Of a stretch of 64,000 nt of DNA, positions 30,503-55,333 are shown in pieces. The translations under genes and the position numbers were made by a program. Location: assembly GCF_000213575.1 (NCBI RefSeq), contig NZ_GL892007.1, positions 248,001-312,000 on the forward strand, written 5' to 3'. Each line of letters begins with the position of its first letter. Within the stretch, counting starts at the first letter, position 1. The notes below the pieces were generated by a model, which saw only the letters and a list, made by a program, of their open reading frames with translations, was not told where the DNA came from and did not search any database. The DNA comes from Dysgonomonas mossii DSM 22836. GTDB taxonomy: Bacteria; Bacteroidota; Bacteroidia; Bacteroidales; Dysgonomonadaceae.

Positions 30503-32935
30503 TTATTTTTTAGTTGTCAGGCGTAATACTGTCAACGAATTACCTGGGAATGAACGTGTAAGTTTTTTCCATGAGAATTTGAAATTATCGGTCTTAGGCG
30601 AAACTTTTGTGGGTTCGTCCAATGTGTTTTCATCAAACGGACTAGCAGACGTCAATACGATAGCCGAGCCATTTCCTGTAAGCAAATCAGCACCCTTCAA
30701 GTCAATCTGAGTCTTTACACTTTTACCTGTAACATTCACGATTTTCAAAATAATATCGCCTGTTTTATCATCACGTGAAGCACTTGAGCAAAGGCCTTTT
30801 ACTTTCAGACTTTCATCAGCAGAGACTTCCTGTATAAGTTTACCGTCCAGATACGCTTTTACCGAAGTACCACGGAGTTCTATCTTCACATCGTACCAAC
30901 GACCGGGTTCGACATTATAAGGCATACTTTCAGTTATCAACCCAACCTCTAACATGTTCACAGAGTTCGTAAAACCACCTAAATCCCACCGGGTACGCTC
31001 TCCCCTATTCTTATTATGGAAATAAATTTGAAATCCATTTTCTCCCTCTATTTTACGAGCTTTCACTTTTATTGTGTAATCCGTCCAGAGCGTATCTCCC
31101 ATATAAATGGTCGTATTTGGTGAAATTGCAGATTGTTTCAATATACCATTGGCTGCAGACCATTCACTGCTAGGCGTATTTTTCCATGTTTCATCTATTT
31201 TAGTAAAATCGGGTTTGAATAATACTTTACCATTCGGTGCTGTTACCTCTAAGTCTTTGAACTCTGCCGAATTCAACCAAGTTCCCAATCCGATACATCC
31301 ACTCGAACGAGGCATCTCAACATTCGGTGCATAGTCTATATTAACGGGCAAATTTACTGTCCCTTGATTGGTTGCGAACATCTGCTGAACATAATAGCTC
31401 GGAATACCGAACCAGCGGTTGTTATCAAAATTGATCAGGTTTACAGGCCATGCCTTATGTTTGGCATGACAAAAAAGAGGCGCATAAGCTGCCATAACAA
31501 CGATATCAGAATTACGTTCCATACCCGTCATCCAAGCTGCTTCACCGATAGCTCCACGTAGATTTCCATTCCCTGTACCACTTGTGACAGCATACTCTCC
31601 CACAAATATTTTAGAGCCATTGCGATCATAACTATCATATTTATTTGAATTCCAGATAAACCAATCAGGATTGCTATAATAATGCTCATCCACGATTTGT
31701 GGTTTTGGATTTTTGGGATGTCCCCCAGCCCATTCGTTAGCAATTAAAACAATATCAGGGTATTTATCATGAATAGCCTTCACAAAGAGTTCCCAGCGTT
31801 CAGCATAAGGAGCCATTCCATTTTCATTACCTATCTCTAAGTATTTCAAGTTGAATGGTGCGGGATGTCCGTTTTTGGCACGAATACTCCCCCATACAGA
31901 AGTGACAGGACCATTTGCATATTCAATCGCATCCAGAGCATCTTGTATCCATTGCCCCATCTGATCCATTGGAACCACCTCCCGGTGGGAAATACCGGCA
32001 TTGATACAAAATAGAGGTTCAGCACCAAGATCTTCGGATAGTTGCAAATATTCATGATACCCTAGGCTGTGTGTAGCATTATATCCCCATATATTCCACA
32101 ATGGAGTACGGGTATCTACATTACCGATAGTCTTTTTCCAATTATTCATATGGGCTAAATCTTCTCCTTCTACCCAACAGCCTCCGGGAAAACGAAGGAA
32201 AGTTGGCTTCAATGCGTTGATTGATTCAGCCAAATCTATACGTAATCCACTGTTCTTCCACGTTTTTTCGGGAATCAACGAAACCATATCCAGAAATAAT
32301 TTACCATTTCCACTACCTGAAATTTCAAGTCGGGCATTGGAACTGCTTCCAGAAGCAGTAAGTACGAGAGGATAATATTTCCATTCTGAAGTGATACTGC
32401 TTATTTCACCCGAAGCAAGAACATTTCCGTCTGCACTCACAATCTTTACTTGCAATGGGGTTTTTAGTCCGCCAACAGCGCAGGCAGCCAATTTGAACAA
32501 ATATCTTTCTCCACTGACAACATGAATTCCCCAGTAACCGTTATTTTCTAATTTAAAAGAACCTTCAAAATCAATAAAAAGTGATTTACGATTGTAAGGA
32601 TTTAACGGTGGCACGAGTGGCTGAGAATTAACATTCGCCTTAATAATATTAGCGGTTGATTTGTTATTAGCCCCCATAAACTTCCAGTACTGTAACGTAT
32701 CGGCATCTTCAAACGAACGGTTTCGAATAAGTTCTGCATATAGTCCTCCATCGGCAGAGAGATTTATATCTTCGAAAAATATACCGAACAAAGTAGGCGA
32801 AATTGTATGTCCCGGCGTTCCGACATCAACAGTTATTTTAGCCGTCGAAGATTTCTGTGCATAAAGTTGCAAAAACGAAACAGATAAAGTCAGGCTCAAA
32901 AAGAGACAAGCTTTTCTAAATATTTTTGTTGTCAT
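30503..32935 (-). CDS. GH51 alpha-L-arabinofuranosidase
   Basis: Secreted enzyme of 810 residues, longer than the roughly 500-residue cytoplasmic GH51 enzymes. A signal peptide ends near YAQ (27). The mature protein starts with a beta-domain and a CBM4-like sandwich (about 75-215), followed by the barrel with acid/base E371 in LEIGNENG and nucleophile E447 in IFVGEYAVTSG. A LamG/DUF1080-like sandwich (about 540-700) is inserted before the final beta-domain. It removes alpha-1,2- or alpha-1,3-linked arabinose from arabinoxylan or its oligosaccharides. It is the last gene of the operon starting at 37677, 39 bp after a GH43 gene, and is closed by the terminator at 30446-30470. Confidence 0.92.
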   Translation of the reverse strand: MTTKIFRKACLFLSLTLSVSFLQLYAQKSSTAKITVDVGTPGHTISPTLFGIFFEDINLSADGGLYAELIRNRSFEDADTLQYWKFMGANNKSTANIIKANVNSQPLVPPLNPYNRKSLFIDFEGSFKLENNGYWGIHVVSGERYLFKLAACAVGGLKTPLQVKIVSADGNVLASGEISSITSEWKYYPLVLTASGSSSNARLEISGSGNGKLFLDMVSLIPEKTWKNSGLRIDLAESINALKPTFLRFPGGCWVEGEDLAHMNNWKKTIGNVDTRTPLWNIWGYNATHSLGYHEYLQLSEDLGAEPLFCINAGISHREVVPMDQMGQWIQDALDAIEYANGPVTSVWGSIRAKNGHPAPFNLKYLEIGNENGMAPYAERWELFVKAIHDKYPDIVLIANEWAGGHPKNPKPQIVDEHYYSNPDWFIWNSNKYDSYDRNGSKIFVGEYAVTSGTGNGNLRGAIGEAAWMTGMERNSDIVVMAAYAPLFCHAKHKAWPVNLINFDNNRWFGIPSYYVQQMFATNQGTVNLPVNIDYAPNVEMPRSSGCIGLGTWLNSAEFKDLEVTAPNGKVLFKPDFTKIDETWKNTPSSEWSAANGILKQSAISPNTTIYMGDTLWTDYTIKVKARKIEGENGFQIYFHNKNRGERTRWDLGGFTNSVNMLEVGLITESMPYNVEPGRWYDVKIELRGTSVKAYLDGKLIQEVSADESLKVKGLCSSASRDDKTGDIILKIVNVTGKSVKTQIDLKGADLLTGNGSAIVLTSASPFDENTLDEPTKVSPKTDNFKFSWKKLTRSFPGNSLTVLRLTTKK

Positions 32936-32974
32936 AATTCTAAATTATATAATTTCAGGTCTTGATATACTTTA

Positions 32975-33931
32975 TCAAACCGGCTTTACTCCTTCTTTTG
33001 TTTGTACAACTTTCTGAATCGTCCCATCCGGATTAAAATATAAATAATCGATACAAATAGAACGACGATAACTTCCTCCGGTAGGAAGAGCTCCATTGTG
33101 ATAAAAGAAATAGGTATTCCCTTTGAAATCAAGAATTCCGGGATGAGTCGTAAAACTATTGGGCACATTATCTTGTATTATTCCTTTATATTCCCATGGT
33201 CCTTCAGGACTATTCGACATACAGTATTCGATCATCTCGGGTTTTGTACCTGCTCCTGCATAGATTAAATAGTACATTCCATTTCTCTTGTATAGCCACG
33301 GACCTTCAATATATCCTTCCGGTTTGAAAGCTTTGATCTCGCTATCAAGCTCAATCATATTTTCCTTCAGTTTAGCCCATTTGCAACTACCGTTTCCCCA
33401 ATAGAGATAAGCTTGTCCATCATCATCTACAAATACAGAGGGATCAATATCATCCCATCCATGTTTCATATCTGTAGTCATTTCATTTACCACGAGGGCT
33501 TTCCCTATCGCATCCTTGAATGGACCTGTAGGACTATCAGAGACGGCAACACCTATTGCTGCACCTCCATTAGAGTTTTCGTCACTTTTATGAAAAGTTG
33601 ATACATACCAATAGAATTTACCATTGCGTTCAACACACTGCGCTGCATAAGCATCGCCTGTAGCCCACGAAAATGTTGAAGGCGAAAGGCATGATCCATG
33701 ATCCTTCCAGTTTACCATATCGGTAGACGAAAAAACATACCAGTCGGGCATTTTATAATTTGTATCTTCTTCAGTTGCACCATCGTGCCCGGCATAAAGA
33801 TATACTGTACCGTCGTGTACCAAAGGCGCAGGGTCGGCTGTAAACATGTGAGTGATAATTGGGTTTTGAGCATTCGTAGTTATCGCCAATGGCAAAAGAC
33901 CCAAGATAAAAATCAGAGCTTTCTTTTTCAT
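32975..33931 (-). CDS. GH43 arabinofuranosidase/xylosidase (single domain)
   Basis: Secreted single-domain GH43 enzyme of 318 residues with a signal peptide (about 1-22). Catalytic acids are base D33 in FTADPAPLV, D163 in DDIDPSVFVDDDG and acid E209 in YIEGPWLY. It belongs to the same subgroup as the two GH43-CBM6 enzymes at 18235-20945 but stops right after the propeller and lacks CBM6. This is a natural single-domain form: it ends cleanly with a stop 39 bp before the GH51 gene and no CBM6 remnant follows. It is the third gene of the operon GH43, tandem CE1, GH43, GH51. Confidence 0.9.
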   Translation of the reverse strand: MKKKALIFILGLLPLAITTNAQNPIITHMFTADPAPLVHDGTVYLYAGHDGATEEDTNYKMPDWYVFSSTDMVNWKDHGSCLSPSTFSWATGDAYAAQCVERNGKFYWYVSTFHKSDENSNGGAAIGVAVSDSPTGPFKDAIGKALVVNEMTTDMKHGWDDIDPSVFVDDDGQAYLYWGNGSCKWAKLKENMIELDSEIKAFKPEGYIEGPWLYKRNGMYYLIYAGAGTKPEMIEYCMSNSPEGPWEYKGIIQDNVPNSFTTHPGILDFKGNTYFFYHNGALPTGGSYRRSICIDYLYFNPDGTIQKVVQTKEGVKPV

Positions 33932-34056
33932 TAGATTATGATTTGTTATTCCTTTAACTATTATTTTTCAGGTATATGATACTTGTAGATTATATTCGTT
34001 TTTTACTATTCGATATTTAGGCTGTTATTATTCCGTATAATAATCTAATTATACCG

Positions 34057-36042
<1,986 letters not shown>

Positions 36043-36129
36043 TTAAGTACATCAACTTATGCTTAGAATAAAACACTACGGTTAGGATTCAATTTCACCT
36101 TGAAACTATTCCCCCCTTTTACATTCATA

Positions 36130-37677
36130 TTATTCGCTTTTAGCATATTCAAAATAGTCAACATCAACATACCCTCCGGCAGCTTTAGTGGCATAATTAT
36201 ATATTGCAAAACGGTTGCCCATAAAATGTTTGAGGTTATAAATCATATGAAATTCGGTACCTAACTGTATCCAATTTTCTTTATCAACACTATAGAAAAA
36301 ATTAGCATTATCGGTATTGAAATCGCAATCCATACGTAAATATACCTTATCAACAGATAGGTCAACTCTTGCCCTTTCTTGATCTCGGTCTGTCATAACA
36401 AGGTACTTTTTATTCCCTTCCATTACTACGGATATTAATCCCGGTTCTGCACAGTATGCTCCGAGCCCTGCAATATCTCCATCTTTCATATTCGAAATAT
36501 CCATAGAAATAATACCACTACATTTTGGCCCCTCTGTCCTTTGTGATAAAATATTACGAGCTTCAAATATAGTTTCAACTACTTTACCTGTTTTTAATCT
36601 CATATAACCCGGACGTTCTGATAAAGACCACAGATTATTATCAGGATTATGATTCCATTGCCAGTTTAGAGCTAATTTATAGGCATCGAAATTGTCGCTT
36701 ATGACTAACGGCATTGCACCAAATCCTTGTATAGGTTTTTCCATTACTTTAGGTACTTTTCCTTCTTCATTACCTAGTATTGGCCAACCATCTTCCCAGC
36801 GACAAGGCACCAATACCGGTACACGTCCTACAGCCCCTCTGTCTTGAAACAAGAAACCATACCAATCTCCAGCCTCTGTATCGATAATAGCACCCTGTGC
36901 AACACCGGCACCCGGTCTATCCATAAAGTCCGACAATATTACTTTTGATTCATAAGGACCTCCGATTTGGTCTGAACGAAAGCATAATTCAGTGCGAATA
37001 CCTCCCTGAGGCCACCAGATTAAAAACATATAATATTTATCGTTGTATTTATATAGATGAGTACCTTCCAACAGATTAGGAAAGCCATCTTCTTTCCCTT
37101 TGATCACAATGACATCAAGTCCGTCAGGTTTAATATCCGAAAGATCACTCTTCAATTCTGTTATGCGAATCTGACCGCTACCATACGCCAGATAAACTTT
37201 TCCATCGTCGTCGAACAAAAGTGATGCATCATGGAAGTTTTTATCAAACTCGCTTATCTTCTTCCACTTCCCCGTAGGATCTTCTGTCTCATAAATATAT
37301 GTTCTCTGAGGTCTGTTAGTAGCAAACAAAACATAAAATTTCCCATTATGATATCGAAGAGATGACGCCCATTGCCCTTGCCCATATATGTTACCACCTT
37401 CTAAATCATACAAAGGGCTATCTTTAATTTCATCAAAGAGATAACTTACAATTTCCCAATTAACAAGATCTTTCGATCGCATAATAGGTGCTCCGGGCAT
37501 TAAGTGCATAGTAGTACTAACCATATAGTAGTCACTCCCAACTCTGATTATATCCATGTCGGGAACATCTGCATATATTACAGGATTTGTAAACTTATCT
37601 TTTTTGACTGAAGGTGTATTTTTACACCCTGCCAAAGCAGATATAAATAAGGCTAATACTAAAAGAATATTTTTCAT
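36130..37677 (-). CDS. GH43 two-domain beta-xylosidase/arabinofuranosidase, lipoprotein
   Basis: Lipoprotein of 515 residues; the lipobox ALAGC predicts lipidation of C18. The GH43 propeller (about 30-320) has general base D40 in DVPDMDI (Asp-Met-Asp where many have Asp-Pro), D150 in FHDASLLFDDDG and general acid E204 in LLEGTHLYKY. A C-terminal beta-sandwich (about 330-515) is of the type that contributes a loop to the active site. The group contains enzymes that act on xylo-oligosaccharides or arabinoxylan side chains. It is the first gene of the minus-strand operon and is driven from the left arm of the 96-bp inverted repeat; the predicted start near 37761 gives a leader of about 84 nt. 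Confidence 0.9.
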   Translation of the reverse strand: MKNILLVLALFISALAGCKNTPSVKKDKFTNPVIYADVPDMDIIRVGSDYYMVSTTMHLMPGAPIMRSKDLVNWEIVSYLFDEIKDSPLYDLEGGNIYGQGQWASSLRYHNGKFYVLFATNRPQRTYIYETEDPTGKWKKISEFDKNFHDASLLFDDDGKVYLAYGSGQIRITELKSDLSDIKPDGLDVIVIKGKEDGFPNLLEGTHLYKYNDKYYMFLIWWPQGGIRTELCFRSDQIGGPYESKVILSDFMDRPGAGVAQGAIIDTEAGDWYGFLFQDRGAVGRVPVLVPCRWEDGWPILGNEEGKVPKVMEKPIQGFGAMPLVISDNFDAYKLALNWQWNHNPDNNLWSLSERPGYMRLKTGKVVETIFEARNILSQRTEGPKCSGIISMDISNMKDGDIAGLGAYCAEPGLISVVMEGNKKYLVMTDRDQERARVDLSVDKVYLRMDCDFNTDNANFFYSVDKENWIQLGTEFHMIYNLKHFMGNRFAIYNYATKAAGGYVDVDYFEYAKSE

Positions 37678-37766
37678 ATGGTAAAATATTTAGATTATTT
37701 GTTTTTCATATTTAGAATAAGGATTGTGATAATTCACGTTGACACAGACCAAACCCACGGCATACT

Positions 37767-37862
37767 ACAAAATTAAAACAAGCAAAGAGAAGTAGAGACT
37801 ATTGTTGTATACTATTACCCAAATAAATGTCTTATCTACATCGTATTTGTTGCATATCCTTT
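37767..37862 (-). repeat. Left arm of a perfect 96-bp inverted repeat, containing a promoter
   Basis: These 96 bases are an exact reverse complement of 38298-38393. Read on the minus strand the arm holds the proximal HTCS half-site TGCAACA (37854-37848), then 72 nt, then the -7 box TAATTTTG (37775-37768), ending one base after the box. The arm is therefore essentially the core promoter of the 37677-30503 operon. A second perfect half-site TGCAACA (37875-37869) lies just outside the arm, in the spacer. Confidence 0.93.
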
Positions 37863-38297
37863 AGCTATTGTTGCACACAAGAATACAACCACTTATCCAC
37901 TAGAATAATTATAGCCTCATTTTTAATCACATACAGATGCTTCACATAAAAAACAACCTAGGCACAAACATTATCGCCTCCTCCCCCAAAAACATGTGGC
38001 AGTAAATTTTATTACATCCGCAACGAAATCAGAAATAAAAAATCTCTATTCGTTTTTAAGGAAAAAATACAATTAGCTTACCAATTATTTACCGACATTC
38101 ATATTTTTCTTGATTTCAACTCTCAACACTTCTTAAACAAAGGCCTCCTATATTTCAATTAATATTAAAGAACTCCTCCCGAAAAACAATATAATTTTAA
38201 AAGCAACAATATTCAAAAAAATACAATTTCACACGAACCTAAAAACAATAATTTAAGGCAGTTTTTAATTCTAAAATTAAACAATAAGACAAAAACG
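37863..38297. other. 435-bp AT-rich spacer between the inverted repeat arms
   Basis: No gene is seen here. The left end carries a perfect distal half-site (TGTTGCA on the plus strand, 37869-37875). The mirror position at the right end (38285-38291) holds the degenerate TAAGACA. Apart from these sites the spacer is AT-rich and without obvious structure. No recombinase gene lies inside it or elsewhere in the window. Confidence 0.7.
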
Positions 38298-38393
38298 AAA
38301 GGATATGCAACAAATACGATGTAGATAAGACATTTATTTGGGTAATAGTATACAACAATAGTCTCTACTTCTCTTTGCTTGTTTTAATTTTGT
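38298..38393 (+). repeat. Right arm of the perfect 96-bp inverted repeat, containing a promoter
   Basis: Exact reverse complement of 37767-37862. It holds the proximal half-site TGCAACA (38306-38312), then 72 nt, then -7 box TAATTTTG (38385-38392). It should drive the plus-strand operon beginning with GH115; the predicted start near 38399 gives a leader of about 89 nt. The distal half-site at 38285-38291 (TAAGACA) is degenerate. Confidence 0.93.
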
Positions 38394-38487
38394 TTAATAC
38401 ATATCGTACATAATCTTAGACTAAAATTAACCGATTTTATGTCGGTATGATGGTAAAACTATCGATACTGAAAATCTATCATATATC

Positions 38488-41007
38488 ATGAAAAATATAA
38501 AGTACATTCTATCAACAATCTGTTTATTCCCTTTGATTTTATTTGCTCAAGCAGATCAATTTGTTTCATTCTCTGCCAAAGAGGATGCCTTCACGCTGGT
38601 AAAACCTTTTGTTGCTGCACCTATATTGATCGATAACAATATAGATTCCGGAATACTGAAAGCAATAGTCAACCTGTCTGTGGATATAGATAAAGTAACA
38701 GGAGTATCTCCCATATTGAAAGTAGATAAAGTGTCTGCCGAAGAAACTGTATTGCTGATCGGCACTATCGGTAAATCGAAATACATTGATGATTTGGTAA
38801 AAAACAAAAAGATCAATGCTTCAGAATTGCAAGGGAAATATGAGAAATATCTGATTCAAACAGTACAAAATCCTATTGAAGGAGTAAAGGAAGCCTTAGT
38901 TATAGCTGGTAGCGATAAACGAGGGACAATATATGGTATATACGAACTGTCTAAACAAATAGGAGTTTCTCCTTGGTATTATTGGGCAGATGTTCCTATA
39001 AAAAAACAAGAGAATATATATATAAAAAGAGGAAAATATACAGAAGGCGAACCGGCTGTAAGATACAGAGGTATATTTCTCAACGATGAAGCCCCTGCCC
39101 TTAGTGGTTGGGCTAATGCAACATTTGGAGGATTTAATAGTAAATTTTACGAGAAAGTTTTTGAGTTAATTCTTCGCCTGAAAGGCAATTTCCTTTGGCC
39201 GGCCATGTGGGGAAGCGCATTCTATGACGACGACCCTCAAAATGGAATTTTAGCAAACGAAATGGGAATTGTTATGAGCACATCTCACCACGAACCCATG
39301 GCTATGGCACAATCCGACTGGCATCGTTATGTAAAAAGAAATAACTTACCAAATATATGGGACTATACTAAAAACACAAGAGCCCTGCAAGAATCTTGGA
39401 GGTTCGGAATGCAGCGAGCCAAAGACTGGGAGAAAGTAGTAACGGTAGGCATGCGCGGGGATGGGGATGAAGCAATGAGCGAAGACACAAACATTGCTTT
39501 GCTCGAAAAAATAGTAAAGGATCAACGAAAGATAATAAGCGAAGTTACAGGAAAGAAACCGGAAGAAACACCTCAGGTCTGGGCGCTGTATAAAGAGGTG
39601 CAAGATTATTACGATCAGGGGATGCGAGTGCCTGATGATGTCACACTTCTCTTCTGTGACGACAACTGGGGAAATGTACGGAAACTTCCCGAAATCAATT
39701 CGAAACCGCATAAAGGAGGATATGGAATGTACTATCACTTCGATTATGTAGGTGCTCCCCGAAACTCGAAGTGGATCAATATAAACCCGATACAACGTGT
39801 CTGGGAACAGATGAATCTTACTTACACACATGGAGTGGATCGTATATGGGTTGTTAATGTAGGGGATCTTAAACCAATGGAATATCCAATCAGTTTCTTC
39901 CTTAATATGGCATGGAATCCCGGCCAATTCAATCCACATAACCTTTTGGATCATACAGAAAAGTGGTGCGAACAGCAATTCGGAAGTACATACGCAAAAG
40001 AAGCGGCACGTTTGATTAATCTTTACTCAAAATTCAATAGACGTGTTACTCCTGAATTATTAAATGATAAGACTTACAGCCTTGAAAATTATAACGAATT
40101 TGAGACTGTGATGAACGATTATCGCAATCTGGTAATCGATGCTATGCGTCTATATTATCTAATGCCGAGCGAATATAAAGATGCGTTCGATCAGCTGGTA
40201 TTGTTTCCAATCAATGCGTGTTCCAATCTTTACGAAATGTATTATGCTCAAGCAAAGAATAAATTGTATGCAGCTAAAAAAGATATACAGGCTAATTATT
40301 GGGCAGATAAAGTAAAAGAATGTTTTGAGAGAGATTCATTACTGACTATACATTACAATCAGACTATAGCAGGAGGTAAATGGTCGCATATGATGGATCA
40401 GGTGCGTATAGGATATACAAGCTGGAACAATCCGCCTAAAAGTATTATGCCTAAGGTAGAATACATAATGCAGACAACAGACTACAAAGAGAAAGTTTTT
40501 GTCGAAAAAAACGGTTATGTTTCTATTGAAGCGGGCAATTACAGTCGCTTGAATAATTCAGACAAGATACATTGGGAGATGATACCGGATATGGGGAAGA
40601 CAAAATCAGCCATGACTACTTTCCCTCAAAATATCTATCCAAAAGAAAATGATAATATCTATCTCGAGTATGACATTGATTTCGAATCGACTGGAGACTT
40701 TAATGTACATCTATTACTTTCTCCGACATTGAACTTCAATGCGAATAAAGGGCTTCGTTATGCAATCTCATTTGATGGTAGGAATGAACAAATCGTAAAT
40801 TTCAACGGACATTACAAAGGCGAGCTTGGTCTATGGCAGGCAGAAGCGATAATTAAATCGACCACAAAGCATACGATAACGGAGAAAGGAAAACACACTC
40901 TTCGATTCCGTGTATTAGAACCAGGCATTGTTCTACAAAAAATATTAATAGATACTGGAGGTCTGAAACCGTCCTACTTGGGTGCACCTAAAAGCGAATT
41001 GAAATAA
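38488..41007 (+). CDS. GH115 alpha-(4-O-methyl)glucuronidase
   Basis: Secreted enzyme of 839 residues with a signal peptide ending near FAQ (21). GH115 enzymes remove (methyl)glucuronic acid from internal positions of xylan, unlike GH67. The N-terminal alpha/beta domain (about 25-190) is followed by the barrel, with long family blocks such as RYRGIFLNDEAPALSGW, LWPAMWGSAFYDDDP, STSHHEPMA and VTVGMRGDGDEAM. A helical domain and a C-terminal beta-sandwich (about 680-839) complete the usual family length. It is first in the plus-strand operon, 11 bp before the CE20-like gene. Its product should reach the hexuronate genes uxuA and the reductase at the end of the same cluster. Confidence 0.95.
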   Translation: MKNIKYILSTICLFPLILFAQADQFVSFSAKEDAFTLVKPFVAAPILIDNNIDSGILKAIVNLSVDIDKVTGVSPILKVDKVSAEETVLLIGTIGKSKYIDDLVKNKKINASELQGKYEKYLIQTVQNPIEGVKEALVIAGSDKRGTIYGIYELSKQIGVSPWYYWADVPIKKQENIYIKRGKYTEGEPAVRYRGIFLNDEAPALSGWANATFGGFNSKFYEKVFELILRLKGNFLWPAMWGSAFYDDDPQNGILANEMGIVMSTSHHEPMAMAQSDWHRYVKRNNLPNIWDYTKNTRALQESWRFGMQRAKDWEKVVTVGMRGDGDEAMSEDTNIALLEKIVKDQRKIISEVTGKKPEETPQVWALYKEVQDYYDQGMRVPDDVTLLFCDDNWGNVRKLPEINSKPHKGGYGMYYHFDYVGAPRNSKWININPIQRVWEQMNLTYTHGVDRIWVVNVGDLKPMEYPISFFLNMAWNPGQFNPHNLLDHTEKWCEQQFGSTYAKEAARLINLYSKFNRRVTPELLNDKTYSLENYNEFETVMNDYRNLVIDAMRLYYLMPSEYKDAFDQLVLFPINACSNLYEMYYAQAKNKLYAAKKDIQANYWADKVKECFERDSLLTIHYNQTIAGGKWSHMMDQVRIGYTSWNNPPKSIMPKVEYIMQTTDYKEKVFVEKNGYVSIEAGNYSRLNNSDKIHWEMIPDMGKTKSAMTTFPQNIYPKENDNIYLEYDIDFESTGDFNVHLLLSPTLNFNANKGLRYAISFDGRNEQIVNFNGHYKGELGLWQAEAIIKSTTKHTITEKGKHTLRFRVLEPGIVLQKILIDTGGLKPSYLGAPKSELK

Positions 41008-41018
41008 AGTTTAATAAT

Positions 41019-42950
41019 ATGCAAAGTAAAAATATTGTAAAATTCTGTTTGATTGTAGTATTCATTTTGGGTTTTGGTATACAGTCAAATGCGAAAGTAA
41101 AATTACCTCGTCTGATTAGCGATGGGATGATCCTTCAAAGAGATACTCCTGTCAAAGTATGGGGCTGGGCATCACCTAGAGAATCTGTAATTGTAAAATT
41201 TCGAGGAGAAATATATAAGACAAAAGCCGACAAAAATGGAGATTGGGCAGTTATTTTACCTGCACAAAAAGCAGGGGAACCCTCCGAAATACAGATCAAT
41301 GACATCATAGTTAAAGACATTTTATTTGGAGATGTCTGGTTATGTTCTGGGCAATCTAATATGGAATTACCGATCAGACGAACACTCGATTTGTACCGTG
41401 AAGAAGTAAAAGAGATTAATAATCCAGATATAAGACTTTTCCGTATGCCAAACAATTATGCATTCGGCGAGCCTCTCATTGATTATAAAGGAGGTGAATG
41501 GAAAGATGCTTCACAGGAAAACATCATGGAATTTTCAGCCACGGCATACTTTTTTGCAAAAGAGCTGCATGACAAGTACAAAGTTCCAATAGGACTTATA
41601 AGTACTGCCATTGGAGGCACTCCTGTTGAAGCATGGATTAGTGGCGAGACTATAAAGAAATATCCTGAGCTCAATGCTGAAGCTGAAAAGTTTGCAACAG
41701 TGGGTTTTATCGAAGATACTAAAAAAAGAGAACAAAAAGAAAGACTTGAAAAATGGTCTGAAGCGAGACCAATTGACAAAGGTGCAGGAAATTGGCATAA
41801 AGAAGGTATCGATATATCGGAATGGAAAGATTATTATCTCCCGGGCTCATGGAGAGAAAAAGACATGGAAATAAATAGAAGTGTCATCTGGTTTCGCAAA
41901 GAAATTGAACTAACAAAAGATGAAGCAACCCAAGCGGCAATCTTACGCTTAGGATATATAATAGATTCGGACTCAACCTTTGTTAACGGGAAATTTGTTG
42001 GTACAACAAGTTATCAATACCCACCTCGCATCTATAATGTCCCTGAAGGTATACTTAAAGCCGGAAAAAACACGGTTGCTATACGAGTTGTTACCAATAG
42101 AGGTGGTGCATTTATGGAAGAAAAACCATATAAAATGATTCTGAGCGACAGAGCAATCGATTTGACAGGAGAATGGAAATATCGTATTGGAGTAGAAAAT
42201 CTACCTATAGAAGGTGGCTATACTTCTTATCAGGATAAACCCACCGCACTGTATAACGGCATGATTGCGCCATCAAACAACTATAAGATCAAAGGTGTAA
42301 TCTGGTATCAAGGAGAGTCCAACGTCAGCAGGGCAAAAGAATACGAAGCCTTATTTAAGGATCTGATAAACGATTGGAGAATCCAACGAAATGAATCGAA
42401 ACTACCATTTATATACGCTCAACTGCCGGAACTTAACAGAGCAAACAAATATCCATCGGAGAGTGGCATGGCAAAACTTAGAGAAGCGCAAAGAAAAGCT
42501 CTAAGTTTACCATATACAGGTATGGCTGTCACATTAGGACTCGGTGACTGGAACGATATCCACCCGCAAAACAAAAAAGGAGTAGGTCATCGTTTGGCTT
42601 TAGAAGCTCAACGTGTAGCTTATGGTGACACCTCAATTGTAAGCAGAGGCCCCCAATTGGAAAGCTTCGAGGTTAAAGGAAATAATATCGTTCTCACTTT
42701 CTCTTCTGTAGGATCAGGCTTATATTCCAATCAGGTGCTTAACGGATTCTCTATTGCAGGAGCAGATAACAGGTATGTTTGGGCTGAAGCGGCTGTACTA
42801 AACAAAAAGACAATAAAAGTATGGAGCAATCAGGTGCAACAACCTGTATCCGTACGATATGGCTGGGCTGACAATCCCGAAGGAGCCAACCTGAAGAATA
42901 AGGAAGGTCTTCCCGCATCTTCATTCCAAGTTGAATTAATTAAAAAATAA
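41019..42950 (+). CDS. Sialate-O-acetylesterase-like SGNH esterase (CE20-type)
   Basis: Secreted esterase of 643 residues with a signal peptide (about 1-25). An N-terminal beta-sandwich precedes an SGNH hydrolase core interrupted by a large inserted beta-domain (about 245-390; a jelly-roll like that of GH2 enzymes), after which the core resumes with GVIWYQGESNVS. Nucleophile S113 lies in CSGQSNMEL; the Asp/His pair is D513 and H515 in NDIHPQNK. The family is often annotated as sialate O-acetylesterase, but members with the inserted jelly-roll act on acetylated xylan or xyloglucan (CE20). In this operon, deacetylation of xylan or of acetylated xylo-oligosaccharides is the best inference. Confidence 0.86.
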   Translation: MQSKNIVKFCLIVVFILGFGIQSNAKVKLPRLISDGMILQRDTPVKVWGWASPRESVIVKFRGEIYKTKADKNGDWAVILPAQKAGEPSEIQINDIIVKDILFGDVWLCSGQSNMELPIRRTLDLYREEVKEINNPDIRLFRMPNNYAFGEPLIDYKGGEWKDASQENIMEFSATAYFFAKELHDKYKVPIGLISTAIGGTPVEAWISGETIKKYPELNAEAEKFATVGFIEDTKKREQKERLEKWSEARPIDKGAGNWHKEGIDISEWKDYYLPGSWREKDMEINRSVIWFRKEIELTKDEATQAAILRLGYIIDSDSTFVNGKFVGTTSYQYPPRIYNVPEGILKAGKNTVAIRVVTNRGGAFMEEKPYKMILSDRAIDLTGEWKYRIGVENLPIEGGYTSYQDKPTALYNGMIAPSNNYKIKGVIWYQGESNVSRAKEYEALFKDLINDWRIQRNESKLPFIYAQLPELNRANKYPSESGMAKLREAQRKALSLPYTGMAVTLGLGDWNDIHPQNKKGVGHRLALEAQRVAYGDTSIVSRGPQLESFEVKGNNIVLTFSSVGSGLYSNQVLNGFSIAGADNRYVWAEAAVLNKKTIKVWSNQVQQPVSVRYGWADNPEGANLKNKEGLPASSFQVELIKK

Positions 42951-42962
42951 ATAAAACATACA

Positions 42963-44375
42963 ATGGAATCAACATCACAAGGTAAAGCCGAATCAAAAGG
43001 ATTTTACAAATTATCAGGAATACAACGCATTGGATTCGGCTCGGGCGATTTAGCCCAAAACCTTATCTATCAGACGGTATCGATGTACCTTCTCATTTTC
43101 TACACAAATGTATTTGGCATTTCTGCTGCCGCAGCAGGGGTCATGTTTCTTATAGTGCGAATTGTAGACGTAATCTGGGATCCTATAGTCGGAGCATTTG
43201 TAGATAAACACAATCCGAAACTAGGTAAATACCGTTCTTATCTGGTACTTGGAGGCATACCCCTTACCGGCTTTGCCATCCTTTGTTTCTGGAATGGGTT
43301 TTCGGGGTCATTGCTTTATGCCTATATCACGTATGTTGGTTTATCGATGCTTTATACCCTTATAAATGTTCCTTATGGAGCGTTGAACGCCTCACTTACA
43401 CGCGATACAGACGAAATCACCAAACTTACTTCGGTACGTATGTTTATGGCAAATCTTGGGGGATTGGCGGTAGGTTATGGAATACCTATTCTTGTAAAGA
43501 TCTTCTCTTCTGACGGAAAAATTAATTCGCCGGAATCAGCGAACGCATGGTTTATCACAATGACGATTTATGCCATAGCCGGATTAGCCTTATTAATTTT
43601 CTGTTTTACTCAGACTAAAGAACGGGTAGTAATGGCTGAAAAAGAAACAGAAAATGTAAAAGTTTCGGACTTGTGGATAGAATTTAAACATAATCGTCCT
43701 CTGAGAATACTAGCTTTTTTCTTCATCACCGCTTTTGCAATGATGGCAATCGGCAATTCGGCCGGGTCGTATTATATGATTTACAACGTGCAGGCACCCG
43801 ATATGCTTCCATACTTTATGGCTTTGGGATCTATCCCTGCTTTTATCTTTATGCCGATGGTACCTGCCATCAAACGAGCAATAGGTAAAAAGCAAATGTT
43901 CTATGTATTTCTAACGGTTGCTATTATCGGTATGGGGTTGTTATATGCCATTTCGGTAATACCTGCGCTTAAGACCCAAGTCTGGCTGGTATTTATTGCC
44001 CAATTCATCAAATCGACAGGAATAATTGTTGCTACGGGCTATATGTGGGCTCTAGTTCCGGAAGTAATCTCGTATGGAGAACATACAACAGGAAAAAGAA
44101 TTTCGGGCATAGTCAATGCTTTGACAGGTATCTTCTATAAGGCAGGAATGGCCTTAGGTGGTGTTGTTCCGGGACTTGTATTGGCTTTTGTCGAATTCGA
44201 CAAAGACAACCAAGTTACACAATCAGCATTTGCCGAACAAGGTATTTTATGGCTTGTTGCTGTAATCCCTGCAATACTTCTTCTTTTGGCCATGTTCATC
44301 ATATCCCGATATGAGCTGGAAGATAATGTAATCGACAAAATAAACATGGAAATTGAAGAGAGACATTTGAAATAA
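42963..44375 (+). CDS. GPH-family sugar:cation symporter (xylo-oligosaccharide transporter)
   Basis: Inner-membrane transporter of 470 residues with about 12 hydrophobic helices and no cleaved signal. It belongs to the glycoside-pentoside-hexuronide:cation symporter family: RIGFGSGDLAQNLIYQTVSMYLL at the start, DPIVGAFVDKHNPKLGKYR between helices 2 and 3, and VPYGALNASLTRD between helices 4 and 5. It probably brings xylose oligosaccharides or glucuronoxylo-oligosaccharides into the cytoplasm, where the signal-less GH43 at 45574-46548 acts. It starts 12 bp after the CE20-like gene and ends 25 bp before GH10. A dead duplicate fragment lies at 4337-4482. Confidence 0.9.
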   Translation: MESTSQGKAESKGFYKLSGIQRIGFGSGDLAQNLIYQTVSMYLLIFYTNVFGISAAAAGVMFLIVRIVDVIWDPIVGAFVDKHNPKLGKYRSYLVLGGIPLTGFAILCFWNGFSGSLLYAYITYVGLSMLYTLINVPYGALNASLTRDTDEITKLTSVRMFMANLGGLAVGYGIPILVKIFSSDGKINSPESANAWFITMTIYAIAGLALLIFCFTQTKERVVMAEKETENVKVSDLWIEFKHNRPLRILAFFFITAFAMMAIGNSAGSYYMIYNVQAPDMLPYFMALGSIPAFIFMPMVPAIKRAIGKKQMFYVFLTVAIIGMGLLYAISVIPALKTQVWLVFIAQFIKSTGIIVATGYMWALVPEVISYGEHTTGKRISGIVNALTGIFYKAGMALGGVVPGLVLAFVEFDKDNQVTQSAFAEQGILWLVAVIPAILLLLAMFIISRYELEDNVIDKINMEIEERHLK

Positions 44376-44400
44376 AAATAACGCCATAAAACATTTTAGT

Positions 44401-45552
44401 ATGAAAAAAAACATCTATTATTTTCTCATTTCTTTATTGCTGATGACAGCATTTGCCTGTAGCGCAAAAAGTAATAAAGAAATAAAAAATGAACCGTCAC
44501 TAAAAGGAGCTCTAAAAGGAAAATTCTATATAGGTACAGCTCTTAATGTAACTCAAATACATGGAATAGATACCGCATCGATAAATATCGTGAAAAACGA
44601 ATTCGATGCCATAGTAGCAGAAAACTGTATGAAAAGCATGTTCCTACAACCAAAAGAGGGTGAGTTTTTCTTTGAAGATGCTGATAAGTTTGTAGAATTT
44701 GGAGAACAAAACAATCTTTATATCACAGGACATTGTCTGATTTGGCATTCGCAAGCTCCATCGTGGTTCTTTGTTGACAATGACGGAAAAGACGTATCTG
44801 CAGAAGTTCTTAAGCAACGCATGAAAACGCATATCATGACAGTAGTATCTCGTTATAAAGGACGTATAAAAGGTTGGGATGTGGTAAATGAAGCTATTAT
44901 GGAAGATGGATCATATCGCAAAAGCAAGTTTTATACAATTTTGGGAGAAGAGTTCATTCCTTTGGCTTTCCAATATGCTCATGAGGCTGACCCTGATGCT
45001 GAACTGTATTATAACGACTATAACGAATGGCATAAAGGCAAGCGTGAAACTATTATCAACTTGATAAAATCGTTTAAAGAAAAAAACATACGAATCGACG
45101 CTGTAGGTATGCAAGGGCATTTTGGGATGGATGGACCAAGTCTGGAGGAATATCAAGCTACCATTGATGATTATACTTCAACAGGCGTAAAGGTTATGGT
45201 TACAGAGTTAGATCTTAGTGCCCTACCCTCTCCTCGTCGAAATACAGGCGCAAACATCTCTGATATAGAAGCATATAATCAGAAAATGAATCCATATACA
45301 ACCGGACTACCAGATTCCGTTTCAGTAGCATGGACTGAACGTATGGGAAGTTTCTTTAAGCTCTTTATAGATAATAAGGAAAAAATAACCCGTGTCACCT
45401 TATGGGGTGTAAGCGATGTAGATTCATGGAAAAACGATTTTCCAATGAAAGGCCGTACCGACTATCCTTTATTGTTTGACAGACAATACAAGGCTAAACC
45501 TGTTGTTCAGGAAATTATCAAGATGGCTGGTCTTCTTGAAGAGAAAAAATAA
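44401..45552 (+). CDS. GH10 endo-1,4-beta-xylanase, lipoprotein
   Basis: Family 10 xylanase of 383 residues. The lipobox AFAC gives a lipidated C20. The barrel covers about residues 32-375; acid/base E164 is in WDVVNEAI and nucleophile E269 in MVTELDLSALPSP, the standard form. There is no CBM insertion of the kind found in surface xylanases of B. ovatus, so it is more likely a periplasmic enzyme for imported fragments. It is paralogous to 3118-4284, which has a weaker lipobox and ITEFE at the nucleophile. It lies between the transporter and the Xsa-like GH43, in the order that is repeated in the decayed copy. Confidence 0.94.
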   Translation: MKKNIYYFLISLLLMTAFACSAKSNKEIKNEPSLKGALKGKFYIGTALNVTQIHGIDTASINIVKNEFDAIVAENCMKSMFLQPKEGEFFFEDADKFVEFGEQNNLYITGHCLIWHSQAPSWFFVDNDGKDVSAEVLKQRMKTHIMTVVSRYKGRIKGWDVVNEAIMEDGSYRKSKFYTILGEEFIPLAFQYAHEADPDAELYYNDYNEWHKGKRETIINLIKSFKEKNIRIDAVGMQGHFGMDGPSLEEYQATIDDYTSTGVKVMVTELDLSALPSPRRNTGANISDIEAYNQKMNPYTTGLPDSVSVAWTERMGSFFKLFIDNKEKITRVTLWGVSDVDSWKNDFPMKGRTDYPLLFDRQYKAKPVVQEIIKMAGLLEEKK

Positions 45553-45573
45553 ACATCATTATCTAATAAAAAA

Positions 45574-46548
45574 ATGAAACAAGCACGATATTTATTTCCG
45601 AAGGATTATATGGCTGACCCATCTGCACATGTGTTCGATGGTAAGATCTATATTTATCCTTCCCACGATTGGGAAAGTGGCATTGCAGAAAATGACAACG
45701 GGGATCATTTTAATATGAAAGATTATCATGTCTTCTCTTTAGAAGATGTGGAAAACGGAGAGGTAACCGATCATGGGGTTGTTCTTTCAGTGGAAAATAT
45801 TCCCTGGTCTGGTCGTCAGCTATGGGATAGCGATACGGCTTTTAAGGACGGCAAATATTATTTATATTTCTCAATGAAAGACAAAAATGATATTTTCCGT
45901 TTGGGAGTAGCTGTTAGCGATAAACCTTACGGGCCATTTATACCACAGGATAACCCAATAAAAGGAAGTTATAGTATAGACCCTTGTGTATTTGAAGAAA
46001 ACGGACAATATTATATTTATTTTGGAGGCATCTGGGGCGGGCAGCTACAACGCTATCGCAAAAATAAAGCATTGGAGTGCGCTTCTTTTCCGGCCGACAA
46101 CGAACCCGCTTTGTGTGGAAAAGTTGCACGTCTGAGAGATGACATGCTCGAATTTGACGAAGAGCCTCGAGATGTAATTATTCTTGATGAACATGGCAAT
46201 CCATTGACGCAAGGTGACACCAATCGACGATTCTTTGAAGCATCATGGATGCATAAATATAACGGCAAATATTACTTCTCGTATTCCACAGGAGATACGC
46301 ACCTTCTATGCTATGCTATAGGTGACAATCCATACGGGCCTTTCACTTATAGTGGTGTTATACTCACTCCTGTAGTCGGCTGGACAACGCATCACAGCAT
46401 TGTCGAATACAGAGGCAAATGGTATCTTTTCCATCATGACTCCGTACCCTCGGGCGGAAAAACATGGCTTAGAAGTATGAAAGCTATCGAATTGGAATAT
46501 AACAATGACGGAACAATTAAAACAATAGAAGGGTTAGAAAGCTATTAG
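45574..46548 (+). CDS. GH43 (Xsa-like) beta-xylosidase/arabinofuranosidase, cytoplasmic
   Basis: Single-domain GH43 enzyme of 324 residues without a signal peptide, close to the Xsa bifunctional enzyme of B. ovatus. Catalytic acids are D15 in MADPSAHV, D136 in SIDPCVF and E222 in FFEASWMHKY. It probably finishes oligosaccharides imported by the transporter two genes upstream, releasing xylose (and possibly arabinose) for the pentose phosphate pathway. It starts 21 bp after GH10. A hairpin lies between it and the GH67 gene. Paralogue: 2139-3110. Confidence 0.92.
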   Translation: MKQARYLFPKDYMADPSAHVFDGKIYIYPSHDWESGIAENDNGDHFNMKDYHVFSLEDVENGEVTDHGVVLSVENIPWSGRQLWDSDTAFKDGKYYLYFSMKDKNDIFRLGVAVSDKPYGPFIPQDNPIKGSYSIDPCVFEENGQYYIYFGGIWGGQLQRYRKNKALECASFPADNEPALCGKVARLRDDMLEFDEEPRDVIILDEHGNPLTQGDTNRRFFEASWMHKYNGKYYFSYSTGDTHLLCYAIGDNPYGPFTYSGVILTPVVGWTTHHSIVEYRGKWYLFHHDSVPSGGKTWLRSMKAIELEYNNDGTIKTIEGLESY

Positions 46549-46602
46549 TTTATTTTAGGTTTAAAGGTTTTAGGTTAATTTTTTGGACTCTTAGTTTTCT
46601 GG

Positions 46603-46628
46603 CAAGGGCGAATGAATATTCGCCCTTG
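46603..46628 (+). terminator. Intra-operon hairpin before GH67 (attenuator or processing element)
   Basis: CAAGGGCGAAT (46603-46613) pairs perfectly with ATTCGCCCTTG (46618-46628) around GAAT. The tail (TATTTAAT) is only weakly T-rich, and no -7 box stands between it and the GH67 start at 46652. It could lower expression of the GH67-uxuA-reductase part or stabilise the upstream mRNA rather than end transcription fully. Confidence 0.5.
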
Positions 46629-46651
46629 TATTTAATATTAAAAGGATTAAT

Positions 46652-48682
46652 ATGACAATCAGATACATTTCGCTCTTTATTATTTTTGTTTTATCATCTC
46701 TTTTATCATGGGCAGAAGACGGGAGCCGCTTATGGCTACGCTACCCTGAAACAAAGCAAAAAGAGAAATCGATACTATCATCACATAGTAGCCCTACTAT
46801 CAATATTGCTTTGGATGAATTATCAAATCATTGGCAAGGACAGACCGTAGAGTTACAGTTAAATAAAAAACTCAAGCATCTTAAAGATGGGTATAGTATT
46901 AAGTCTAATAATCGGAAAATTACTATTTCAGCAGGTTCTGATGTCGGGCTACTATATGGATCATATTGTTTATTACGATTGCAACAAACAGGAGCAGACC
47001 TTACTACTTTAAATATAGAAGAACTGCCCTCTTATGATATACGTATCCTCAATCACTGGGATAACCTGGACGGAACTATCGAACGTGGATATGCGGGTTA
47101 TTCGTTATGGAAATGGGACGAACTGCCTAATACACTTTCACCACGATATAAAGAATATGCTCGTGCAAATGCTTCAGTAGGTATCAATGGTACTGTTTTG
47201 AATAATGTTAATGCTTCTCCCAATATTCTAAAGAAAGATTATTTGGAAAAAGTAAAAGCTTTAGCTGACATTTTTCGTCCGTATGGGCTGAAAGTTTACC
47301 TCTCTGTAAATTTCTCTTCTCCTAAGGTATTGGAAGGTCTATCCGATTCTGACCCATTAAACCCGGAGGTACAGAAGTGGTGGAAAGCCAAAGCCAAAGA
47401 GATCTATTCACTAATTCCCGACTTTGGTGGTTTTCTGGTAAAAGCTAATTCTGAAGGTCAACCCGGACCGCAAGATTACGGACGAACTCATGCCGATGGA
47501 GCAAATATGTTAGCCGATGTACTGAAGCCATACAAGGGTATAGTTATGTGGCGAGCGTTTGTATATAATCCGAGCATGGAAGACCGGGCAAAACAGGCAT
47601 ATCAGGAGTTTGTACCATTAGATGGACAATTCCGGGATAATGTCATTATTCAGATAAAGAACGGCCCTATCGATTTTCAGCCGCGTGAACCATTCAATCC
47701 GTTGTTTGGTGCACTGCGTAAGACTCCGGCAATGGTAGAATTTCAGATAACACAAGAGTATCTCGGTTTTTCTAACCACCTTGCATATCTGGCTCCTTTG
47801 TTTAAGGAAACTCTTGACAGCGATACATATTCTGATGGGCAGGGCTCTACGGTAGCCAAAATAACAGACGGAACATTACGTCCGGCTAAAACAACGGCCA
47901 TATCGGCAGTAGCTAATATAGGCGAAGATATAAACTGGTGTGGGCATCATTTTGCACAGGCAAACTGGTATGCATTCGGACGATTGGCTTGGAACCACCA
48001 ACTTTCTTCAAACCAAATAGCTGATGAATGGATAAGAATGACATTCTCCGATAATAGCAAATTTGTTGAGCTGGTAAAAAATATGATGCTAAATTCCAGG
48101 GAAACCATTGTTGACTATATGATGCCGTTGGGACTTCACCATATTTTTGCCGAAAACCATCATTACGGACCTGAACCTTGGTTGTCGGAAGCAGGTCGAG
48201 AAGACTGGACTTCTGTATACTATCACAAAGCGGATAGCATAGGGCTCGGTTTTAATCGTACAATAACGGGTAGTGATGCTGTGTCGCAGTATTTCACTCC
48301 TTTGAATAATATTTATAATGACATATCAACCTGTCCGGAGAATCTACTCATGTGGTTTCATCATGTTCCCTGGAATTATAAGATGAATGACGGTAAAACG
48401 ATGTGGGATGCTCTTTGTTATAAGTATGATTCGGGTGTACAACAAGTAAGGGAGTATCAGAAGGTTTGGGATAGAATGGAGCAATATATAGACTACAGAC
48501 GTTTCGAAGAGGTTCAATCCAAATTAAAAATTCAGGCACGAGATGCCGTATGGTGGAGAGATGCTTGTTTGTTGTACTTCCAGACATTCTCAAAAAAGCC
48601 TATCCCCTATGAGCTTGAACGTCCCATATATGAACTCGATGACCTAATGAAAATAAAACTAGATATGAAACACCATAATTAA
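46652..48682 (+). CDS. GH67 alpha-glucuronidase
   Basis: Secreted enzyme of 676 residues with a signal peptide ending near SWA (21). Family 67 removes (methyl)glucuronic acid only from the non-reducing end of xylo-oligosaccharides and so complements GH115. The catalytic acid is E268 in KANSEGQPGPQDYG; the two bases are D341 in NGPIDFQPREP and E369 in FQITQEYLG. The spacing (73 and 28 residues) equals that of E292, D365 and E393 in the Cellvibrio enzyme. It follows GH43 after a 103-bp gap with a hairpin and is 7 bp from uxuA, tying glucuronate release directly to its breakdown. Confidence 0.94.
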   Translation: MTIRYISLFIIFVLSSLLSWAEDGSRLWLRYPETKQKEKSILSSHSSPTINIALDELSNHWQGQTVELQLNKKLKHLKDGYSIKSNNRKITISAGSDVGLLYGSYCLLRLQQTGADLTTLNIEELPSYDIRILNHWDNLDGTIERGYAGYSLWKWDELPNTLSPRYKEYARANASVGINGTVLNNVNASPNILKKDYLEKVKALADIFRPYGLKVYLSVNFSSPKVLEGLSDSDPLNPEVQKWWKAKAKEIYSLIPDFGGFLVKANSEGQPGPQDYGRTHADGANMLADVLKPYKGIVMWRAFVYNPSMEDRAKQAYQEFVPLDGQFRDNVIIQIKNGPIDFQPREPFNPLFGALRKTPAMVEFQITQEYLGFSNHLAYLAPLFKETLDSDTYSDGQGSTVAKITDGTLRPAKTTAISAVANIGEDINWCGHHFAQANWYAFGRLAWNHQLSSNQIADEWIRMTFSDNSKFVELVKNMMLNSRETIVDYMMPLGLHHIFAENHHYGPEPWLSEAGREDWTSVYYHKADSIGLGFNRTITGSDAVSQYFTPLNNIYNDISTCPENLLMWFHHVPWNYKMNDGKTMWDALCYKYDSGVQQVREYQKVWDRMEQYIDYRRFEEVQSKLKIQARDAVWWRDACLLYFQTFSKKPIPYELERPIYELDDLMKIKLDMKHHN

Positions 48683-48689
48683 CTGGAAA

Positions 48690-49862
48690 ATGAAAAAGAC
48701 ATGGAGGTGGTTCGGGAAAAAAGATAAGATTACGCTGCCTATGTTAAGGCAAATCGGAGTCGAAGGAATTGTTACCGCATTGCATGATATACCGAACGGT
48801 GAAGTATGGTCGTCGGAAGCAATTAATGATCTGAATAACTATATAAAAGAAGCCGGATTGTGCTGGTCAGTTGTAGAAAGCCTGCCTGTTAGCGAAGCTA
48901 TTAAATATGGAGGAGATAATAGAGATTTATTGATAGATAATTATATTACAAGTCTTCGGAATCTTGGAGAAGCCGGTATCAAGACTGTTTGCTACAACTT
49001 TATGCCCGTTATAGACTGGATTCGCACAGATCTCATGTACCCGTGGTCTGACGGTACTTTCTCTCTTTATTTTGATAAGACACGCTTCGCTTACTTTGAT
49101 TGCATGATCCTTAAACGTGAGAGTGCAAAAGAGGATTACTCAAAAGAAGAAATGGATAAGGTCTACGAACTGGATAAGGTTATAACAGAACATGAAAAAG
49201 AACAGTTGATAGACACTATCATTGTAAAGACACAAGGTTTTATCAATGGTAATATAAAGGACGGGGATAAAAACCCTGTCGCTATTTTTAAAACACTTCT
49301 AGCATTGTACAATGGAACAGATCAAAAAGCATTAAGAGAAAACTTAAAATACTTTTTAGAGCGTATAATGCCTATCTGTGACGAATACGATATTAATATG
49401 TGTATTCATCCTGACGATCCACCATATCCGGTATTGGGTTTACCCCGTATTGTTTCTAACAGAGATGATATTGAATGGATATTAAATGCTGTTAATAACT
49501 CACATAATGGACTTACATTTTGCGCAGGATCACTCAGCTCAGGAATACACAATAATGTTCCGGAATTGGCTCGCCAATTTGTATCGCGTACACGCTTCGT
49601 ACATTTAAGAAGTACAAATATTCTTTCGGATGGCAATTTTATCGAAGCACCACATCTCGAAGGGCGGGGACATCTAATAGAATTAGCCTGTATTTTTGAA
49701 AAGGAAAATCCGTTACTCCCCATGAGAGTTGATCATGGCAGACTAATGCTCGATGATGCTGATAAAGGTTATAATCCGGGATACTCATTCTATGGACGCA
49801 TGTATGCCCTAGCACAGATGGATGGAGTGATAGAAACCATAAAAAACGAATTGAACAGATGA
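48690..49862 (+). CDS. uxuA: D-mannonate dehydratase
   Basis: Cytoplasmic enzyme of 390 residues, usual UxuA length, converting D-mannonate to 2-keto-3-deoxygluconate in hexuronate breakdown. The N-terminus MKKTWRWFGKKDKITL and the block IGVEGIVTALHDIPNGEVW are family signatures. Metal-binding candidates are in MCIHPDDPPYP, TFCAGSLSSG and RVDHGRLM. The stop overlaps the start of the next gene by 4 bp (ATGA), so the two are translationally coupled. It handles glucuronate released by GH115 and GH67 after isomerisation and reduction; a glucuronate isomerase (uxaC) is not in the window. Confidence 0.93.
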   Translation: MKKTWRWFGKKDKITLPMLRQIGVEGIVTALHDIPNGEVWSSEAINDLNNYIKEAGLCWSVVESLPVSEAIKYGGDNRDLLIDNYITSLRNLGEAGIKTVCYNFMPVIDWIRTDLMYPWSDGTFSLYFDKTRFAYFDCMILKRESAKEDYSKEEMDKVYELDKVITEHEKEQLIDTIIVKTQGFINGNIKDGDKNPVAIFKTLLALYNGTDQKALRENLKYFLERIMPICDEYDINMCIHPDDPPYPVLGLPRIVSNRDDIEWILNAVNNSHNGLTFCAGSLSSGIHNNVPELARQFVSRTRFVHLRSTNILSDGNFIEAPHLEGRGHLIELACIFEKENPLLPMRVDHGRLMLDDADKGYNPGYSFYGRMYALAQMDGVIETIKNELNR

Positions 49863-55225: not shown

Positions 55226-55333
55226 TGCGACAAAAACAAAACAATATGCGACAAAATAGATTTTGGTACAACAATTTTAAACAAATAGAAGATAGTTTCA
55301 TTAAACAATAATCCATGCTAGTTTCTAGATTTG
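55226..55333 (+). promoter_or_regulatory. Putative HTCS-responsive promoter of susC/susD
   Basis: TGCGACA (55226-55232), 14 nt, TGCGACA (55247-55253), then exactly 72 nt, then TAGATTTG (55326-55333), a perfect -7 box. The predicted start is near 55340, about 470 nt before the susC ATG. A second TAnnTTTG-like box (TATTTTTG, 55341-55348) lies close by but at a different distance. Confidence 0.75.

Follow-up and report, generated by a model that had tools for sequence, protein, structure and literature searches.

A mirrored pair of promoter-like repeats between two predicted xylan operons of Dysgonomonas mossii appears to evolve in concert

Two divergent, predicted xylan operons of Dysgonomonas mossii DSM 22836 are separated by a perfect inverted repeat, and each of its 96-bp arms looks like most of a promoter facing outward to its operon. 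We read the structure as a mirrored duplicate promoter that would answer to one regulator and whose arms have been homogenised by recombination; we put the probability of this reading at roughly 0.85. The analysis covers a 64-kb stretch of the genome (64,000 nucleotides; the window hereafter), to which all coordinates refer unless a contig or locus is named. Features are collected in Table 1, in which CE1, CE20 and GH51 are presumably the usual family names for the Pfam matches concerned.

Table 1. Features of the inverted repeat, its predicted operons, related promoters and candidate regulators in the window
Feature	Position	Strand	Remarks
Left arm, predicted promoter of GH43-CE1-GH43-GH51 operon	37767..37862	-	96 bp, reverse complement of right arm
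Spacer	37863..38297	none	435 bp
Right arm, predicted promoter of GH115-CE20-MFS-GH10-GH43-GH67-UxuA-SDR operon	38298..38393	+	96 bp
Left operator, TGCAACA-N14-TGCAACA	37848..37875	-	
Left distal half-site	37869-37875		outside arm, within spacer
Right operator, TAAGACA-N14-TGCAACA	38285..38312	+	2 mismatches
Right distal half-site	38285-38291		within spacer
Left putative promoter, TAATTTTG	37768..37775	-	-7 type box; offset from operator exactly 100
Right putative promoter, TAATTTTG	38385..38392	+	-7 type box; offset from operator exactly 100
Sister promoter, TGCGACA-N14-TGCGACA-N72-TAGATTTG	55226..55333	+	exact; upstream of susC (55811)
Sister promoter, operator-N72-TAAATTTG	9011..9118	+	exact; upstream of transketolase (9256)
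Sister promoter, operator-N72-TAGCTTTG	1908..2015	-	exact; upstream of GH43 (131-1855)
Left operon (predicted)	30503..37677	-	grouped by direction and spacing
GH43, left operon	36130-37677		
Two-domain esterase, left operon	34057-36027		
GH43, left operon	32975-33931		
Alpha-L-arabinofuranosidase, left operon	30503-32935		
Right operon (predicted)	38488..50698	+	GH115, SASA/CE20-like esterase, MFS_2 sugar transporter, GH10, GH43, GH67, UxuA, short-chain dehydrogenase
HTCS, first candidate to bind the arms	51021..55028	-	divergent from susC (55811); HTH_18
Second HTCS, alternative or additional regulator candidate	5040..9008	+	ends just before transketolase site

The arms are exact reverse complements of each other, with 0 mismatches in 96 positions around a spacer of 435 bases, just as the original prediction described them. 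Their similarity extends inward, at 97% over 105 bases. No other perfect inverted repeat of at least 20 bp with arms within 2 kb occurs in the window. As background, 400,000 bases of the same genome (G000) were sampled as twenty 20-kb stretches (about 10% of the genome), counting repeats with a gap of more than 8 bases and arms within 2 kb; left out of the count were two hairpin-like repeats with a loop of 7 bases (22 and 20 bp) as well as self-overlapping palindromes, the longest of 32 bp. This sample held one perfect inverted repeat of at least 20 bp, which was 24 bp long. Across the whole genome, matches to the arm at E<=0.001 were the two arms only. The 96-bp repeat is real and exceptional, far beyond the genome background. 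When single-stranded it would fold into a long hairpin, a consequence of the repeat that we do not use as evidence. An assembly artefact of G000 is ruled out by a sister species, G015, which carries the same structure with different bases.

Each arm extends from just outside a proximal TGCAACA half-site to one base past the TAATTTTG box, both of which had been placed correctly beforehand. A distal half-site stands 21 nt upstream of the proximal one, just outside the arm, and reads TGCAACA on the left and TAAGACA on the right. With this half-site included, the promoter layout is TGCRACA-N14-TGCRACA-N72-TAnnTTTG, where we take TAnnTTTG to be the Bacteroidales -7 box. Each arm had been proposed to be a complete core promoter facing outward; the promoter-like character and the orientation towards an operon hold, but the distal half-site lies outside the arm and the two sides differ there. 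The further idea that the repeat forces equal expression of two half-pathways fares similarly: the promoter-like arms are identical but the distal half-sites are not, and because the right one is degenerate, equal regulation of both operons is not guaranteed.

The same layout is found at three sister promoters in the window. Exact copies of the pair TGCRACA-N14-TGCRACA number five in the whole genome, four of them within the window. TAnnTTTG starts exactly 100 bases past the first base of the pair in all six promoters inspected (left arm, right arm, susC, transketolase, GH43 at 1908-2015 and the promoter of a second GH115 gene in G015). This agreement in offset is not expected by chance, because eight intergenic stretches of the window, promoter regions included, contain TAnnTTTG 12 times in 6,662 positions counted on both strands. 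When up to two mismatches were allowed, operator-N72-TAnnTTTG was found at five places in G000, all of them in the window (four exact, the right arm with two mismatches), and at seven in G015, six of which are regulon promoters. The off-by-one control, N73, gave two places in G000 and one in G015, none of them among the N72 places. On this architecture, we assign the arms to the local xylan regulon as predicted members.

Beyond these two genomes, N72 showed no excess at the same tolerance: 99 genomes had 16 places with N72 and 19 with the N73 control, and a single conserved stretch that recurs in members of the genus accounts for 6 of the latter. With at most one mismatch, the N72 architecture is matched in 3 of 393 genomes of the order, one of which is G000, and the bare TGCRACA-N14-TGCRACA pair is present in 12 of 25 genomes of the genus, mostly once each. 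Among the 16 N72 places is one in G010 that departs from the pattern by one mismatch and looks like the susC promoter. About 400 bases downstream of it comes the first gene with a Pfam match, which encodes an esterase; a 93-aa ORF between the two belongs to no known family. It should also be noted that a possible third half-site occurs at operator offset 41, as TAAGACA in the arms (38326-38332, mirror 37828-37834), TACAACA at susC (55267-55273) and TGCAACA in G010, and is not evident in the transketolase and GH43 promoters.

Three genes for hybrid two-component regulators (HTCS) lie in the window, at 5040, 25510 and 51021. The HTCS at 51021-55028, with an AraC-type DNA-binding domain, is beside susC, and a TGCRACA direct repeat with a 21-nt period stands between the two. 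A direct-repeat operator of about this spacing is exact in four of the five window promoters and has two mismatches in the right arm. In the parts of PMC3878776 considered here, predicted HTCS motifs of Bacteroides are direct repeats whose two sites are on average 21 bp apart. Because the 21-nt repeat fits these motifs, the regulon of the arms is probably under HTCS control, with regulator binding and transcription deduced from sequence. HTCS 5040-9008 and HTCS 51021-55028 are 54% identical in their C-terminal DNA-binding regions (107 aligned residues). Since two related HTCSs adjoin such sites, the regulator of the arms is not fixed, and one, the other or both likely control these promoters. 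The 72-bp gap between operator and -7 box is long for a classical AraC-type activator, which counts against our reading.

Judged by direction and spacing, each gene set flanking the repeat would form one operon. Among named relatives of the adjacent GH115, the best comes from Dysgonomonas sp. PF1-14 and is 71% identical (the window's own genome was possibly left out of that comparison). Elsewhere in the same cluster, 13855-14556 encodes a NUDIX plus NrtR/AraR-type winged-helix protein, with domains similar to those of the arabinose regulator BtAraR in the portion of PMC4666351 considered. A second block at 14859-29424 holds esterases, GH8, two GH43-CBM6, GH97, GH31 and its own HTCS (25510-29424); no exact TGCRACA pair was found in this block.

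The mirrored structure is carried by two species only among 25 genomes of the genus and 101 relatives. The right arm is matched in 2 of the 25 genus genomes, and the whole region in 4 of the 101 relatives, in two of them over about 30 bases. Among 393 genomes of the order, 8 match the right arm, all but G000 over a short length (26-33 bases). A search for the wide operator GATAAGACRTTTA...GTATACAA, with up to 3 mismatches in the 25 genus and 101 family genomes, returned only the arms of both species and the second GH115 promoter of G015. A relative of the GH115 is encoded in 8 of the 25 genus genomes. The divergent layout is absent from G016, G008, G001, G019 and G014, the other genus genomes with a near-full-length GH115 match, where a long same-direction frame abuts GH115 upstream (G004, with partial matches, was outside this comparison); the locus of the nearest named relative, L015, likewise has a same-direction frame abutting GH115 and no divergent layout. 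None of the 80 named GH115 loci listed (L015-L094, several with little upstream DNA) has a 96-bp inverted repeat within 1.5 kb, the longest inverted repeat among them being 42 bp at 93%.

Two loci from this survey deserve separate mention. A Tannerella MAG has runs of AATTGTCAATTG-type microrepeats upstream of its GH115 gene (L092:3540-3985); the short inverted repeats of that locus are microrepeats of this type and were rejected as candidates. In G223, from another family, a 30-bp match of unproven relation lies between a gene for a histidine-kinase/receiver/AraC regulator and one for a TonB-receptor (SusC-like) protein; it contains a mirror-image pair of its own, AAATGTCTTATCTAT / ATAGATAAGACATTT (L111:1480-1530), which resembles part of the arm.

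The comparison of arms between related genomes, which the original prediction had proposed, was made with G015. This species has the same locus with the spacer in the same orientation as in the window, and its two arms match each other without a difference across precisely these 96 positions. Compared with the window, the arms of G015 differ at 8 of 96 sites, and all 8 differences are common to both G015 arms, so that the copies are closer within a genome (0/96) than between species (8/96). If the arms changed independently, the chance of 8 identical changes out of 8 would be about 4e-13, as a rough estimate. For the flanks, the comparison took in 15 bases beyond either end of the arm (-15 to -1 and 96 to 110). 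In the window, the left and right sides differ at 18 of these 30 positions, 17 of which distinguish the sides in G015 as well, showing that homogenisation ends where homology ends. At the 18 side-specific sites the base is the same in both species at 18/18 on the right and 15/18 on the left; of the other three left sites, two changed to a third base, and position -5 of G015 carries the right-side base. The edge of the homogenised tract is not perfectly sharp at this last position.

Because the flanks are largely side-specific and conserved, and the arm end-points are the same, both arms were already present in the common ancestor. The pattern, which comes from one species pair, requires at least one homogenising event after the split and indicates that the arms evolve in concert, presumably through arm-to-arm gene conversion or template switching since then. 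The original prediction had listed recent duplication, conversion or repeated inversion; homogenisation is borne out by the 8 of 8 common changes, but the duplication predates the split from G015, as the same end-points attest. G015 also has a second, divergent GH115 gene (C1:937540-940167, 46% identical in the best segment) with a single copy of the arm promoter, 73% identical (L011; C1:937136-937269). When this paralogous promoter was used as outgroup, 4 of the 8 changes were placed on the window lineage and 3 on the G015 lineage, with 1 unplaced, which suggests that conversion acted in both lineages, as far as an outgroup of 73% identity allows.

Between the species, each arm differs at 8/96 sites and three single-copy sister promoters taken together at 8/324 (Fisher p=0.014 without correction). 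Since the arms changed more than the single-copy promoters, their identity does not reflect extreme constraint. The fast-diverging spacer differs at 110 of 408 aligned sites, plus gaps, the flanking coding stretches at 93/1278 and 79/1213, and the leaders at 4/88 and 4/94. We note that the 5' leaders (37678-37766 and 38394-38487) are about 95% conserved, versus 92% for the arms and 93% for the coding stretches.

Repeats at so short a distance could undergo inversion as well as conversion. Because the promoters lie within the arms, a flip of the spacer would leave both in place, and would only swap the distal half-sites TGCAACA and TAAGACA. This allows for a self-correcting pair, in which conversion keeps the half-pathways equally inducible and an occasional inversion makes the strong distal half-site (TGCAACA) and the weak one (TAAGACA) trade places, acting as a ratio switch and not as an on/off switch. 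We consider this extension improbable; were it true, cells favouring one operon could coexist in a population with cells favouring the other.

A DNA switch in the stronger sense, in which the 435-bp spacer is inverted through recombination of one arm with the other and expression of both operons changes as a result, had also been suggested, and we find it slightly harder still to support. Perfect inverted repeats are present, spaced where inversion is possible, and a flip would give TGCAACA-N14-TGCAACA on the GH115 side and TAAGACA-N14-TGCAACA on the GH43 side. However, in classical invertons the promoter lies between the repeats and its orientation sets expression on or off, whereas here the -7 box and the proximal half-site lie in the arms and are unchanged by inversion; an on/off switch is rejected on this ground. 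The spacer points the same way in 2 of 2 species, and the asymmetry of the distal half-sites is kept by side in both. Nor was a site-specific recombinase found among the 34 window ORFs of at least 180 aa, of which 32 match Pfam families, none of them a recombinase family, and 2 match nothing.

Identity of the arms might instead be kept by selection on each arm alone, without recombination between them. The arms do have the same regulator and promoter elements, and elements common to the second GH115 promoter of G015 are conserved. Against this, all 8 interspecies changes occur in both arms, and outside the common elements the regulon's single-copy promoters differ among themselves as well as from the arms. 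The 8 co-changes strongly disfavour selection alone, which we reject as very unlikely. Independent recent duplication of one arm to the other side, once per lineage, would also make arms identical within a genome, but we hold it to be just as unlikely: in both species the arms end at exactly the same bases, and the bases outside and the distal half-sites are largely side-specific and conserved, which argues that both arms are ancestral. Copying onto an arm already in place is gene conversion. Least credible of all are terminal inverted repeats of a small, MITE-like mobile element, which have the overall shape in their favour (inverted arms around an unrelated spacer) but are rejected because dispersed copies are lacking in G000, where the only two are the arms at this locus. 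It also speaks against them that single promoters of this regulon look like the arms, that G015 has the locus in the same position and that no target duplication is obvious at the ends by eye.

We therefore return to the mirrored duplicate promoter under recombination. A regulated promoter would have been duplicated and placed back to back before the split from G015, allowing one regulator, most likely the hybrid two-component system of the PUL, to induce two divergent xylan operons together. Each copy comprises a TGCRACA direct-repeat operator with a 21-nt period and, after a gap of exactly 72 bp, a -7-type box of the form TAnnTTTG. Recombination between the arms would then have re-equalised them, in tracts that end where arm homology ends, either by gene conversion or by polymerase template switching between the inverted arms. 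These two routes are not separated by the data, and either can yield inversions. The sequences directly show the repeat, the rigid architecture at five places in this genome and the joint change of the arms; from them we infer regulator binding, the transcription start and the choice of homogenising mechanism.

Parts of this picture have precedents. In Bacteroides HTCS PUL promoters, as far as PMC3878776 was covered, an operator of about 21-bp direct repeats likewise lies beside susC and the HTCS gene; unlike there, two copies are mirrored here over 96 bp and co-evolve. The exact 72-bp gap from operator to -7 box, seen at five places here, does not appear in the covered parts of that paper. 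Repeated bacterial genes, tuf and nif among them, are kept alike by homologous recombination (PMC8262849), and here too copies within a genome are homogenised by recombination; unlike these tuf-type coding families, the present case concerns 96 bp of non-coding promoter, inverted and 435 bp apart. In yeast, according to the part of PMC8604942 consulted, template switching homogenises the arms of inverted repeats and can invert the spacer as its other product. The arm homogenisation is alike, but the yeast case concerns short repeats in coding DNA, whereas here the arms are long, lie in a bacterial promoter region and enclose a spacer of conserved orientation. Bacteroides invertons (PMC10994844) resemble our case in that they, too, place inverted repeats at a promoter in a Bacteroidales genome. 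They differ in that the promoter here is part of the repeats themselves and would not be silenced by inversion.

The best known bacterial gene conversion involves long repeated genes. A search by title, with most subscription literature outside it, found no publication on mirrored promoters under concerted evolution. The locus is a natural example, compact in size, of two regulatory regions that serve one pathway, stand 435 bp apart and have undergone identical base changes between species. The rigid architecture from operator to -7 box is a precise, searchable signature of this xylan regulon, and the mirrored arms make it testable whether mirrored promoters lock the expression ratio of divergent operons.
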